DNA of 64,000 nucleotides from Pseudactinotalea sp. HY158 (GTDB lineage Bacteria; Actinomycetota; Actinomycetes; Actinomycetales; Beutenbergiaceae), in the NCBI RefSeq assembly GCF_009660225.1, contig NZ_CP045920.1, positions 2,988,079-3,052,078 of the forward strand, in the 5' to 3' direction. Positions within the stretch are counted from its first letter, which is position 1. Every line of letters starts with the position of its first letter. The notes under the pieces are model-generated. The model worked only from the letters and a program-made list of their open reading frames with translations, was not told the origin of the DNA and made no database searches. Below are positions 2,900-54,100 of the stretch, piece by piece. A program made the position numbers and the translations under genes.

Positions 2900-3552
2900 C
2901 GGCCGGCGACATGGCGCCGCTGCTGCTCGAGGCCCTCGGGCAGACGGCCTACATGGTCCTCATCACCCTCGCCGCGGGCGGCGTCGTCGGACTCGCGCTC
3001 GGGATCGGGCTGTACGTGACGCGCAGCGGGAACCTGCTCGCGAACCGGGCCACCTTCACGATCCTCAACCTGGGCGTGAACATCGTGCGGCCGATCCCGT
3101 TCCTCATCTTCCTCGTGGCGCTCGGGCCGCTGACCAAGCTGGTGACCGGGCGGATCATCGGGATCGAGGCGTTCACGTTCGCGATGTGCTTCATGGCCGC
3201 GTTCGTGTTCTCCCGGCTCGTGGAGCAGAACCTGCTGTCGATCGACCCGGGCGTGGTCGAGGCGGCGCGCGCGATGGGCGCCTCGCCGCTGCGGATCATC
3301 CTCACCGTGCTCATCCCCGAGGCGCTCGCCCCGCTCATCCTCGGGTACACGTTCCTGTTCGTCGGCGTGCTCGACATGTCGGCGATCGGCGGGTACCTCG
3401 GCGCCGGTGGGCTCGGCGACGTCGCGATCGTGTACGGCTACCAGCAGTACGACTGGGCCGTGACCGCGACCGTCGTGGTGATCATCGTGATCATCGTCCA
3501 GCTCGTGCAGTGGCTCGGGAACTCGCTGGCGAAACGGGCGCTGCGGCGCTGA
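2896..3552 (+). CDS. metI: Methionine ABC transporter permease
   Basis: This 218-aa integral membrane subunit has five hydrophobic segments. It carries the EAA-loop signature of binding-protein-dependent permeases (VVEAARAMGASPLRIILTVLIPEALAPLILG, about residues 120-150) that contacts MetN. The GTG start overlaps the metN stop. Together with metQ and metN it forms a complete MetNIQ importer. A perfect palindrome 18 bases after the stop probably ends the transcript. Confidence 0.95.
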   Translation: MTAGDMAPLLLEALGQTAYMVLITLAAGGVVGLALGIGLYVTRSGNLLANRATFTILNLGVNIVRPIPFLIFLVALGPLTKLVTGRIIGIEAFTFAMCFMAAFVFSRLVEQNLLSIDPGVVEAARAMGASPLRIILTVLIPEALAPLILGYTFLFVGVLDMSAIGGYLGAGGLGDVAIVYGYQQYDWAVTATVVVIIVIIVQLVQWLGNSLAKRALRR

Positions 3553-43387: not shown

Positions 43388-45811
<2,424 letters not shown>

Positions 45812-45894
45812 GGCCGCACCAGCCTACGACGGCCCGGCGACCCCGAGCGGCCCCACAGAATCATGGGGCCCATCCGCGCCATCCGGGCCATGCG

Positions 45895-46080
45895 AGCCAC
45901 GGGGATGTGGGTGGCCCGGACCACCACTGACGTGGCCGCAGCCACCCAGTCGGGAGCGAGCCATGGATGTGGGTGGCCCGGACCACCGCTGACGTGGTCG
46001 GAGCCACCCAGTCCGGGCGGAGCCATGGATGTGGGTGGCCCGGACCACCCCTGACGTGGTCGCGGCCACCCACTGGGGGG
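45895..46080. repeat. Three tandem copies of a 62-bp hairpin unit
   Basis: The block GGATGTGGGTGGCCCGGACC starts at 45903, 45965 and 46027, exactly 62 bases apart, and the units are about 90% alike. Each unit folds strongly: GGGTGGC pairs with GCCACCC, and inside GACCAC pairs with GTGGTC around a loop of about seven bases. The period is not a multiple of three and no gene reads through. The array lies between the small membrane protein gene (upstream on the minus strand) and pcrA. Confidence 0.9.
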
Positions 46081-46087
46081 GGGTGGC

Positions 46088-46426
46088 CTACCAGATGACG
46101 GCGATGGCGATGTTGGCGAGCACGAGGCCCGCGATGGCGCCGAGGAAGCCCCGGCTCACCTTCTCCTGGTTGCGACCGCCCCAGATGATCATGCCGCCGG
46201 CGATGAGCGCGATGAGCAGCTTGATCCCGTACTTCATGTCGTTCACGTCGGTGAAGATCGCGTGGGCCAGCCCCATCGAGATGAGGCCGGCGATGATGGC
46301 GGTGAGGATGCCGTGAAGCATGCCGGTGGCGATCTTCGGCTTCTTGAGGTTGACCACGGCGCCGCCGAACACGATCGCCCAGCCGACCATGTGCAGGATC
46401 ACGAGAATCTGCAGGAGAAGAGTCAT
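46088..46426 (-). CDS. Small four-segment membrane protein
   Basis: The 112-aa protein consists of four hydrophobic segments (LLLQILVILHMVGWAIVFGGAVV, MLHGILTAIIAGLISMGLAH, YGIKLLIALIAGGMIIWGG, FLGAIAGLVLANIAIAVIW) with short loops (NLKKPKIATG; TDVNDMK). Similar small integral membrane proteins are widespread in actinobacteria without known function. It starts MTLLLQ at 46426 with AGGAGAAG upstream. Confidence 0.75.
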   Translation of the reverse strand: MTLLLQILVILHMVGWAIVFGGAVVNLKKPKIATGMLHGILTAIIAGLISMGLAHAIFTDVNDMKYGIKLLIALIAGGMIIWGGRNQEKVSRGFLGAIAGLVLANIAIAVIW

Positions 46427-46498
46427 GTGCTGACACTACGTCAGCACCCTGGGGGGCTCACAATCCCGGCCGTGGCCCGCGTCACAGCCGCCTCGGGC

Positions 46499-47170
46499 TC
46501 ATAGGAGCCGTCGCATCGCCGCCCAGCGGGTGAGCTCGTGCCGGGAGGAGAGCTGGAGCTTGCGCAGCACCGCGGACACGTGCGATTCCACGGTCTTGAT
46601 CGAGATGAACAGCTCCCCTGCGACCTCCCGGTAGGTGTAGCCGCGCGCGATGAGGCGCATGACCTCCTGTTCCCGGGCCGAGAGCCGGTCGAGCTCGTCG
46701 TCGGCGGGCTCGCTCAGCCGGCTCGCTCCCTGGGCTCCGCCCGCACCGAAGGCGTCGAGCACGAAGCCGGCGAGCCGCGGGGAGAACACCGCGTCGCCGC
46801 CAGCGACCCGGCGCACCGCGTCCGAGAGTTCGGGCCCGCTGATCGCCTTGGTCACGTACCCGCGGGCACCGGCACGCACCACGGAGACGACGTCGTCGGC
46901 GGCATCGGAGACCGACACCGCGAGGAAGCGCACCCCCTCGCCCAGGTCGGAGCAGCCGCGCACCACCTCGGCCCCGCCGCCCCCGTCCCCGCCGGGCAGG
47001 TGCACGTCGAGCAGCACGACGTCGGGCCGTAGGGCCCGCGTGGCGGCGATCCCACCCTCGACGTCGTCCGCCTCGCCCACGACCTGCAGGTCCGCGGCCA
47101 GTTCGGCGCGCAGCCCCGCCCGCACCATGGCGTGATCGTCCACCACGACCACTCGCAACGTCGTGCTCAT
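46499..47170 (-). CDS. NarL/LuxR-type response regulator
   Basis: The 223-aa regulator has a receiver domain (VVVVDDHAMVRAGLRAEL; phospho-Asp in DVVLLDVHLPG near residue 54; Lys in GYVTKAI) and a LuxR-type HTH (LSAREQEVMRLIARGYTYREVAGELFISIKTVESHVSAVLRKL). Its start overlaps the stop of the upstream kinase gene by four bases, so the two form a coupled two-component system. The divergent PspC/LiaF-like operon beyond the kinase is the obvious target. Confidence 0.93.
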   Translation of the reverse strand: MSTTLRVVVVDDHAMVRAGLRAELAADLQVVGEADDVEGGIAATRALRPDVVLLDVHLPGGDGGGGAEVVRGCSDLGEGVRFLAVSVSDAADDVVSVVRAGARGYVTKAISGPELSDAVRRVAGGDAVFSPRLAGFVLDAFGAGGAQGASRLSEPADDELDRLSAREQEVMRLIARGYTYREVAGELFISIKTVESHVSAVLRKLQLSSRHELTRWAAMRRLL

Positions 47171-51100: not shown

Positions 51101-54100
51101 ATGATTGGTATGGAACTTCAGCAGCTGGTGGGCGAGGTGGGCGATGATGCCGGCCTGGTCGCTCGGCTGCGTCAGGGCCGCGATACCGTGGATCGGGTCA
51201 AGTTGGAGCAGCTCGCGTTGGCGGCGACGTGGGTGCAGTGGCATCCGTTCGTCATCGCCGATGACTATGACGGCGATGAGGACCTGGCCGGTGCGCCGCG
51301 GCTCGTGGCCGAACGCGCCCGTGCCCGCAACGCGATCTGGGAGCGGGAGGGCCACGTGGTCACCCCGGCCACGACCGGATCCGGCACCGGGGCCGGATCC
51401 GACTCCGGGGCCGGCGCGGGTGCCATGGGCTCTGATTCGATGGATGCCCCGGCGGCCGCCACCACGTCGTCCTCCTCCAGCGAGTCCGCCACCGGCGGTG
51501 ACGCCACCGCCGCGTGTGCCGATCCCGCGCCCTCGGCCAGTGGCACGCTTGCAGGTGCTTCCTCCTCTCCCGCGGCCGGCGAGCCGGCCACCTCCAGCTC
51601 CGCGGCCTCCGGCTTCACCACCTCTGAATCCGCCACGACCGGATCCGGCTCCGGGGCCGGGGTCTCGGGGTTCGTGGCCTCGGGTGGTGAGCACGGGGCC
51701 GATCTGGGGGTCGATCCGGGCACGGGGGTGCGGGGGTTGTGGACGGTGGAGGAGTTCTCGATCTCGACGTTCGCGACCGCGGCCGGGATGGGTCTGGGCG
51801 CGGCCGAGCGGCTGCTGCTGGAGGCCGAGCAGTTGCGGGTGCGGCTACCGCGCCTGTTCGCCCGGACCATGGCCGGGCGGACGCGGGTGTGGCGGGCCCG
51901 GACCCTCGCCCGGGCGACCCTGTTCCTCTCGGAAGAGGCATGTGACTACGTCGATGCCCAACTCGACCTCGTGCCCTTGAACTTCGGGCAGGCCCAGCTC
52001 GATGGCCTGATCAAGCGGGCCCTGATCGAGCACATGCCCGAGGAGTACGAAGACCTCGAGGAACGCTTCGCCGCGCCACCGGCACGAGACGTCGTGTTCA
52101 AGCACGCACGCGACGGGACCGGGGACACGAGCGTGCAGGCCGTCCTGCCCGTCGTGGAGGGCCGCATCCTCGAAGACGTCATCGACCACCTCGCCGCCAC
52201 CCTCACCGCCCAGGGCTGGAAGCTGACCGCGGGCGAGTTGCGCTCCTACGCCATGGGCGACCTCGCCCGGCTCCGCTACGACGGCCAACACCCCCTCACC
52301 CCACCCGAGACCCCCACCAGCGAGCCGAACAGTGGGCCGACCGGTGCCCAGCTGCCCGGCAGACCACCCGACGGGCCGAACGATGGGCCGGCAGGGCCGA
52401 GCCGGTGTGGGGATCCGAACTGCACCGGCAACCGCCACGACGACGACCCGGTGACCACCGCCAGCCCGGTGACCACGGGCGTCCCGGTGACCACGGGCGT
52501 CCCGGTGACCACGGGCGTCCCGGTGACCACGGGTGGGGCGGGTGTGCCGCGTGGCAAGATCTTGATGTACTTGCACGTCCAGGCCCGTGACCTGTTCCCC
52601 TTCGGCATCCCGAACACCGGCCCACCACCACCGCCGACACCCGGCGGCGCCGGAGGTGCCGGAGCTGCGGGAGCCGATCACGGCGATGACGCCGCCGGCA
52701 GGCCCGCCACGCGCGCATCCGGGCCCCCGACCGGGCCGACCGGGCCGCTGACCGAGCCCACCGAGCCGACTGGGTCGCCTGGGCCGCTGACTGGGTCGTC
52801 GTTGGGGATTGATCCCGGCCGGTTGCGGCGGACGCCGGTGCGTATCGAGGCCCGCGGCATCCCGGCCGGCACGTTCATCAGCGCCGCCGAACTCGCCCCG
52901 ATGTTCTACCGGCCATCCGCGCTCACCCCGCACGGACGCCCCTGCACCGGTGACTGCCTCACCCGGCCCACCGGCCCGCCCGACGGCCCGCCCGCGGGCC
53001 CGATCCTCGACCGGCGCAGGCACCGATCTGACAGCAGCCGATCTGGCAGCAGCCGATCTGGCGGCATTGAGGGGACAGCCCTGCCCGGAACCGGCGGGAC
53101 CGACAGCACAGGTGTGTCCACCGCTCCCGGATCCGTCGAGGTCGCCGCCGAGGCCGGCGAGACCGTCCGGCCCGGAACCGGCGAGACCGACACCACAGGT
53201 GTGTCCACCACTCCCGGATCCACCGTAGTCGCCGCCGGGGCCGGCGAGACCATCCTGCTCGGGGCGTCGGCCGGCAGCCCCGGCTCCGGTGCTGCCGGTG
53301 CTACGGGTGCTACGGGTGCTGTCGGTGCTACGGGTGCGGCCGGTAGCGGGTTGGCGTGTTTCGCGCCGGAGATCATCGTTCGTCCGGTCCTGGACCTGGA
53401 CGAGCCACTCGCCACGGACTGCTACACCCCGTCCGAGCGGCTGCGTGAACAACTCGTCCTGGCCGAGGATCGATGCGCCTTCCCCTGGTGTACCCGCACC
53501 GCCCGCGCCTGCGACCTGGACCATATCCAGGCCTGGCACACCACCCGGCCCCGCACCGGCCCGAACGCCGGCGCCGAGGTCGCCACCGGCGGGGCGACCT
53601 GCCTGTGCAACCTCGCCCCGCTGTGTCGGGCGCATCACCGGCTCAAGACCCACGCCCGCGCCGCCGCCGCGTCCCACGGCCGGCACGCGGCCTGGACCTA
53701 CGTCAAACTCGATACCGGCACCTACCTGTGGACCGGCCCCCACGGCCTCCGGCTCCTACGCACCCCGTGGGGCACCTACGACACCCAGAACACCGGCATC
53801 CAGAACACCGACATCCACGAACCAGACGAGCCGGGTCAGACGAGCAAGACGAGCGACCACCGTGACTCGAACGGTCCGAACGGCGTGGACGGCGTGGGCG
53901 GCCCGAACGACCCGACCGACCTGACCGGCTCGAACGGTCCGACCGGCGTGGGCGGCTCGACCGGCCCGACCGGCCCGACCGACTCAATCGGCACGACCGA
54001 CGCAACCGGCGCGACCGGCGCAACCGGTGCGACCGGCGTGGGCGGCGCGAGCGAACGGTCCGCGAACGGGGCGATGTCCCCGCAGCGGGAACGGGCGAAC

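Follow-up and report, generated by a model that had tools for sequence, protein, structure and literature searches.

The 64,000-nucleotide stretch of the Pseudactinotalea sp. HY158 genome analysed here (the window) carries, between pcrA and a small conserved gene, a 62-base unit repeated three times in tandem – raising the question of what the array is and whether it has anything to do with pcrA. A first-pass annotation had placed three hairpin-forming units at 45895-46080 and suggested a triple terminator, an RNA element in the pcrA leader, or a variable-number repeat. This interpretation proved partly supported. The tandem structure that the variable-number reading presumes is present: the units start, on the + strand, at 45903, 45965 and 46027 (spacing 62 and 62), the array spans 45903-46074, and the annotated range was correct within about 15 bases. 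Tandem Repeats Finder reported a period of 62, 2.7 copies and 91% matches (score 282), and the second and third copies are 89% and 79% identical to the first in ungapped comparison.

Both flanking genes lie on the − strand. Read on that strand, each unit consists of a 46-base core, approximately ACYGGGTGGNTCCGACCAC-7-GTRGTCCNGGNCACCCACAT, followed by a spacer. Unit 1 (46013-46074) has its core at 46029-46074 and a 16-base spacer, unit 2 (45951-46012) its core at 45967-46012 and a spacer of the same length, and unit 3 (45889-45950) its core at 45905-45950 and a trailing spacer that is alike only in part. The small gene upstream of the array (46088-46426, − strand, stop codon 46088-46090) encodes a protein of 112 amino acids, hydrophobic by eye, that has matches in 22 of the 24 family genomes (own genome counted) and none in a Pfam search. 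On the other side, pcrA (43388-45811, − strand) encodes a UvrD-type helicase with a PcrA/UvrD tudor domain by Pfam. At its 3′ end, the third + strand copy gives way to non-repeat sequence (46075-46088), which comprises nine G, some further bases and the margin of the stop codon of the small gene. This nine-G run (+ strand, within 46075-46090) separates the array from the stop codon, which on the − strand reads TAGGCCACCC and recalls the truncated 3′ arm of a unit.

The first-pass annotation had proposed a search of the genome for the unit, with a neutral tandem duplication as the outcome if there were neither transcription through the region nor a copy elsewhere or in relatives. BLAST of the window array against its own 3.65-Mb genome identified five more loci, at 1.21, 1.94, 2.84, 3.20 and 3.48 Mb, so that the six loci together contain 15 complete units, in most cases three each with a step of 61 or 62 bases, and a diverged pair was found at a further locus. 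Every complete unit scores above 59 bits in a covariance model, R1, which was built from these same 15 units. Searches with a 3′-arm pattern and with R1 found no further strong locus beyond the six in this genome, though R1 scored 150 of 7753 first-look candidates and weak copies could be missed. Since the queries that found the loci (the window array and the 3′-arm pattern) are weighted to the 3′ arm, a conserved 3′ arm is favoured among them. A neutral tandem duplication (VNTR) peculiar to this locus is nonetheless refuted by the relatives that BLAST, the 3′-arm pattern and R1 each identified; the 79-89% identity of the tandem units would suit it, but the related arrays at five other loci leave it next to no credence.

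Three complete units are present at each of four loci (window, 1.21, 2.84 and 3.20 Mb). The 3.48-Mb locus has two, plus a third lacking its 5′ half and starting at the TAG stop of a MOSC-domain gene. At 1.94 Mb a single complete unit lies between fragments, with GGGAGTAGTCCCGG before it and a second copy of its 3′ end after it. Because GGGAGTAGTCCC has no occurrence in a 464-kb sample of the genome (which excludes the 1.94-Mb locus), we read the fragment as the probable remnant of a neighbouring unit; a possible fragment also follows the 2.84-Mb array. The period is 62 in the window and at 1.21 and 3.48 Mb, and 61 at 2.84 and 3.20 Mb and in the diverged pair. The latter, at 2.18 Mb (L068, about 3350-3475), comprises two units at a 61-base spacing with weaker scores (21.4 and 19.4 bits, with E 0.05 and 0.19), which we think are a diverged relative of the family. 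The ends of each of these two units, ATGAGGG and CCCTCAT, are able to pair.

Five other weak R1 matches that we inspected each resemble a single hairpin shortly after an apparent stop codon. The string GNCACCCACAT occurs eight times in the 464 kb and is carried by six units of two arrays within that sample. A single-dyad pattern gave 103 matches, against 38 for a reversed control; by hand count of those listed, the six arrays account for 25 and the diverged pair for 2. Of 15 dyad loci checked outside the arrays, 11 are in open reading frames and 4 were left unassigned by a simple ORF caller.

We examined how far the family extends beyond this genome. R1 matched one of 396 genomes of the order at E 1e-4, the source genome itself; the set was an even draw from a larger group, and stricter filters were applied in scoring. 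Among the 24 genomes of the family, three matched at E 0.001: the source genome and two others (G022 and G023), whose matches are solitary hairpins, with no tandem partner within the 351 bases inspected. One genome of the genus was among those searched. No match was obtained by blastn against plasmids and phages, and a degenerate exact pattern had 0 matches in viral_contigs. The same kind of pattern returned one match, in Pseudarthrobacter, from genome_contigs, a set that may omit records of the window's genome or near ones; from its letters alone, we judged this a chance single match rather than a family member.

Across 23 orthologous small-gene loci (own included), R1 finds three units in the source genome only; among the relatives' loci, L092, L073, L077 and L078 gave the four weak single matches seen (12.0 to 19.7 bits). 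By eye, the 3′ flank of the small gene had no unit in the 17 of 22 relatives' loci inspected. Other short tandem repeats occupy this flank in three relatives: TGAGCGTGTCCGGCC-like (L083), TGCCTCGA-like (L084) and a pair of GCGAGGTGGTTCTGC (L091). With tandem matches from the source genome only, the family is, within the set of genomes searched, confined to this lineage. Our literature searches met no description of this repeat, though we do not claim that it is absent from print.

Comparison of the complete units revealed that letters and lengths are conserved unevenly. The 46-column core alignment is gap-free in all 15. Core identity is 92.8% within loci (13 pairs) and 74.0% between them (92 pairs), with the 5′ arm at 92.8% and 75.0% and the 3′ arm with ACAT at 96.2% and 86.5%. 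Loops are 84.6% identical within loci and 37.1% between, and internal spacers 82.8% (4 pairs) and 40.6% (32 pairs); base composition alone would give about 30% identity, and spacers were compared over 16 columns, the last of which, at 61-base loci, is the first base of the next unit. Core columns 38-46 (CACCCACAT) are invariant, and the ACAT among them lies outside the 13-pair stem. The conserved portion of the unit is thus one asymmetric half, GTRGTC...GNCACCCACAT, together with lengths: the loop is 7 bases and the spacer 15 or 16 at each locus, though their letters differ widely between loci. Across the family, hairpin strength is less well preserved than sequence and spacing. Constancy of spacing rests on five loci, and statements on unit number on six. 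Some loop letters are common to pairs of loci (GTCA in the window and at 1.21 Mb; CCGGGA at 2.84 and 1.94 Mb), and the loci may therefore be of more recent origin than the argument from spacing requires. Position within the array carries no signal, as 72 of 216 relabellings reach the observed value – an indication that copies were made or homogenised locally.

By Pfam, the window array, between the small gene without a match and pcrA, has counterparts between L28 (rpmB) and a SnoaL-like gene, S20 (rpsT) and RDD, a lipase maturation factor and an MTES_1575-type nuclease domain, an AMP-binding enzyme and UbiA, and MOSC and AzlD. The diverged pair lies between an open reading frame with a sub-threshold Anthrone_oxy match and an Ala_racemase_N gene. 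With the diverged locus included, four of the seven settings are codirectional, three convergent and none divergent. Of the 126 gaps measuring 100-600 bp in the sample, as delimited by a simple GC-frame ORF caller, 36 are divergent, and the absence of divergent settings (0/7) is statistically weak, with a chance of about 0.09.

That arrays stand behind genes would suit tandem terminators or 3′ mRNA stabilisers, acting in both directions through their dyad, and folding in the window agrees. As the first-pass annotation had predicted, every window unit folds into a hairpin on the − strand (−35.4, −31.6 and −29.1 kcal/mol; z −5.3, −5.3 and −3.1 against 200 shuffles of each unit), and the whole array folds well on both strands (z −5.1 on − and −4.0 on +). 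Folding is also strong at 3.20 Mb (z −3.1, −2.2 and −4.1) and in two of the three units at 2.84 Mb (z −2.3, −0.8 and −2.8). The core dyad is real: the 13-pair structure has 85.6% of its cells paired, and this drops to 31-51% when the pairing is slid by 1-3 columns. Single hairpins of similar theme occur near gene ends in the source genome and two relatives, and a terminator role has been proposed for clusters of hairpins that lack a U trail (PMC8355165).

Other evidence points away from a general terminator or RNA role. Units at 1.21 Mb (z +0.1, +0.9 and −1.2) and 3.48 Mb (z +0.4 and −0.4) fold little or no better than their shuffles, and the 1.94-Mb unit has a z of −1.2; overall, z is below −2 in 8 of the 15 units and above it in 7. 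No pair is altered on both sides in the 15 cores, and each of 500 shuffles pairs as well as the observed alignment or better, leaving the structure without covariation. The terminator scan of 45600-46600 found 0 terminator-like sites, that is, no U tract after a G+C-rich stem. Separate, stronger hairpins (z −7.0 and −7.3) lie between rpmB or rpsT and the adjoining array. Finally, the units lie on the strand of the upstream gene in the window and at 1.94, 2.84 and 3.48 Mb, and on the opposite strand at 1.21 and 3.20 Mb. The triple terminator of the first-pass annotation therefore fails as a general account and we regard it as unlikely for the family, although a local RNA effect or terminator could still operate at the window locus, where folding is strong.

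An RNA regulatory element in the pcrA leader is harder still to sustain. The array does lie upstream of pcrA on the same strand and folds strongly (z −5.1), but a conserved promoter-like stretch (45812-45843) that resembles the RecA-NDp/PafBC consensus intervenes. All 24 family genomes (L124-L147) have a TANNNT box 9-10 bases ahead of the pcrA ATG, and eight bases further up a 9-mer has at least six of the nine letters of tTGTCRgtg in 20 of the 24, a level that 1.6% of random 9-mers reach. The source PMC5656591 gives tTGTCRgtg-8-TannnT as the consensus of LexA-independent damage genes. In the window, the putative promoter (45821-45843, − strand) comprises TAGGCT at 45821-45826, 9 bases before the ATG, and a 9-mer at 45835-45843 in the tTGTCRgtg place; the latter is degenerate, matching five of nine letters and thus among the four weak ones of the 24 genomes. 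A promoter scan of 45600-46600 returned nothing.

With this box lying between array and gene, the array is probably outside the transcript from pcrA's own promoter, and the box-to-ATG spacing suggests that pcrA may have a leaderless start. Other members of the family adjoin other genes, and an Rfam search of 45000-47000 gave 0 covariance-model matches at E up to 1. The array does not look like a pcrA control switch, and we consider the leader reading extremely improbable. Just upstream of the promoter stretch lies a perfect 7-bp inverted repeat at 45849-45870, GGCCCCA/TGGGGCC with an 8-base loop and no T run.

We filed these arrays as a new, small, lineage-specific interspersed repeat family. 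To our knowledge, such small repeat families are little described in actinobacteria outside mycobacteria. MIRU and MIRU-VNTR of M. tuberculosis are described in PMC2734929 as tandem, intergenic, scattered units of 40-100 bp, and tandem units of 61-62 bp at six intergenic loci fit that description; the likeness is one of size, dispersal and tandem form. The same source places MIRU at 41 locations, compared with six or seven loci here, and the present family further differs in its dyad symmetry and its about three units per locus. It also describes an M. tuberculosis tandem array upstream of the DNA repair gene fpg1 that it gives as missing outside the complex.

REP sequences (GTAG/CGTC) share with the family a palindromic build, intergenic position behind genes and codirectional or convergent settings, and PMC3733652 describes species-specific REP families and tandem reiteration together with flanking DNA. 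All seven loci here have such settings, a statistically weak agreement. Unlike the high-copy 20-40 bp palindromes of REP, the family has a longer unit and few copies: 15 complete units with a 46-bp core at six loci, to which weak copies may have to be added. The unpaired GTAG/CGTC tag is absent from the core end; 14 of 15 cores begin AC or AG, all 15 end CACAT, and the GTRG of the cores sits inside the 3′ arm. A search for the RAYT (Y1 transposase, PF01797) that goes with GTAG REPs had 0 matches in the source genome, and 5 of 14 control genomes have one. Thousands of REPs are predicted in three Actinomycetota according to PMC12306157. Hairpin-cluster intrinsic terminators, which PMC8355165 describes as several hairpins that follow a stop codon and lack a U tract, are likewise a partial match, as the family's folding is not kept and two loci have separate hairpins nearer the gene. 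A CRISPR array was rejected because, within a locus, internal spacers show 82.8% identity (4 pairs) instead of being unrelated.

Our preferred reading – with a probability of roughly 45% – is an interspersed repeat of MIRU/REP-like kind, confined to one lineage, whose action, if it has any, would be as double-stranded DNA. The element is about 185 bp long and consists of three direct repeats, each unit being an imperfect inverted repeat of 61-62 bp; it lies in the gaps that follow gene ends, at six loci or, if the diverged pair is counted, seven. Each core contains two GGTGG-N6-CCACC-like dyads with centres 21 bp apart, so that a three-unit array presents six dyads at steps of 21 and 40-41 bp, about two and four helical turns. 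This spacing would place the six roughly on one helix face, where a putative dimeric protein could perhaps bind them cooperatively. Half-site symmetry peaks at offsets 5 and 26, with 3.69 and 3.78 of 5 half-site pairs (locus-weighted), compared with 1.50 for genome 16-mers. The symmetry of the two dyads is about 75%, below the 85.6% of the core hairpin; the dyads may thus be a mere by-product of the palindrome, which explains part of their symmetry, and as protein sites they are putative. A lineage-specific chromosomal binding platform – six phased dyads in three units, placed behind genes at six or seven loci, with both the number of three units and the 61-62 bp spacing held by selection for a putative protein in chromosome organisation or transcription-coupled topology – is a more speculative proposal, and one that we regard as rather unlikely.

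Much of the evidence fits a selfish or neutral repeat equally. A single or triple unit could have been copied to a few harmless sites behind genes, in the manner of a MITE or REP, by a trans-acting transposase now lost or unrecognised, with tandem copies arising and homogenising by slippage and gene conversion. The appearance of the family in one genome of 396 in the order, the clustering of units by locus with an uninformative array index, the fragments seen at 1.94 Mb and perhaps also following the 2.84-Mb array, and the intergenic position are all consistent with such an origin, and we hold it to be quite possible. It sits less well with the lack of a Y1 transposase match in the genome (the one type searched), with loop and spacer lengths that stay constant despite differing letters, and with about three units at each of six loci, a number that free slippage would not lead one to expect. 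The same two features – geometry kept while intervening letters drift, and about three units per locus – make the choice between a selected array and a selfish repeat directly testable, and repeat families small enough for complete deletion are rare test objects.

Within the 464-kb sample – the window plus 20 stretches of its genome, analysed with Tandem Repeats Finder (score at least 50) and open reading frames from a simple GC-frame caller – three with a period of 30-200 were reported: the window array, its family member at 3.48 Mb, and a 72-base array unrelated to them. The last lies between convergent genes at 1.8457 Mb (L114, 5712-5900) and has two clear units and a diverged third by eye; a second full copy was not found in the genome. 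The window also contains an 87-base tandem repeat of 2.1 copies at 53083-53262, which is probably inside a reading frame given its absence from the intergenic list. Surveys of 400 kb each in genomes G001 and G023 gave two and one intergenic tandem repeats in the same range of periods. In G001, a 95-base tandem pair (L148, 19184-19374) lies between codirectional genes and is predicted to fold strongly, at −61.2 kcal/mol per unit.
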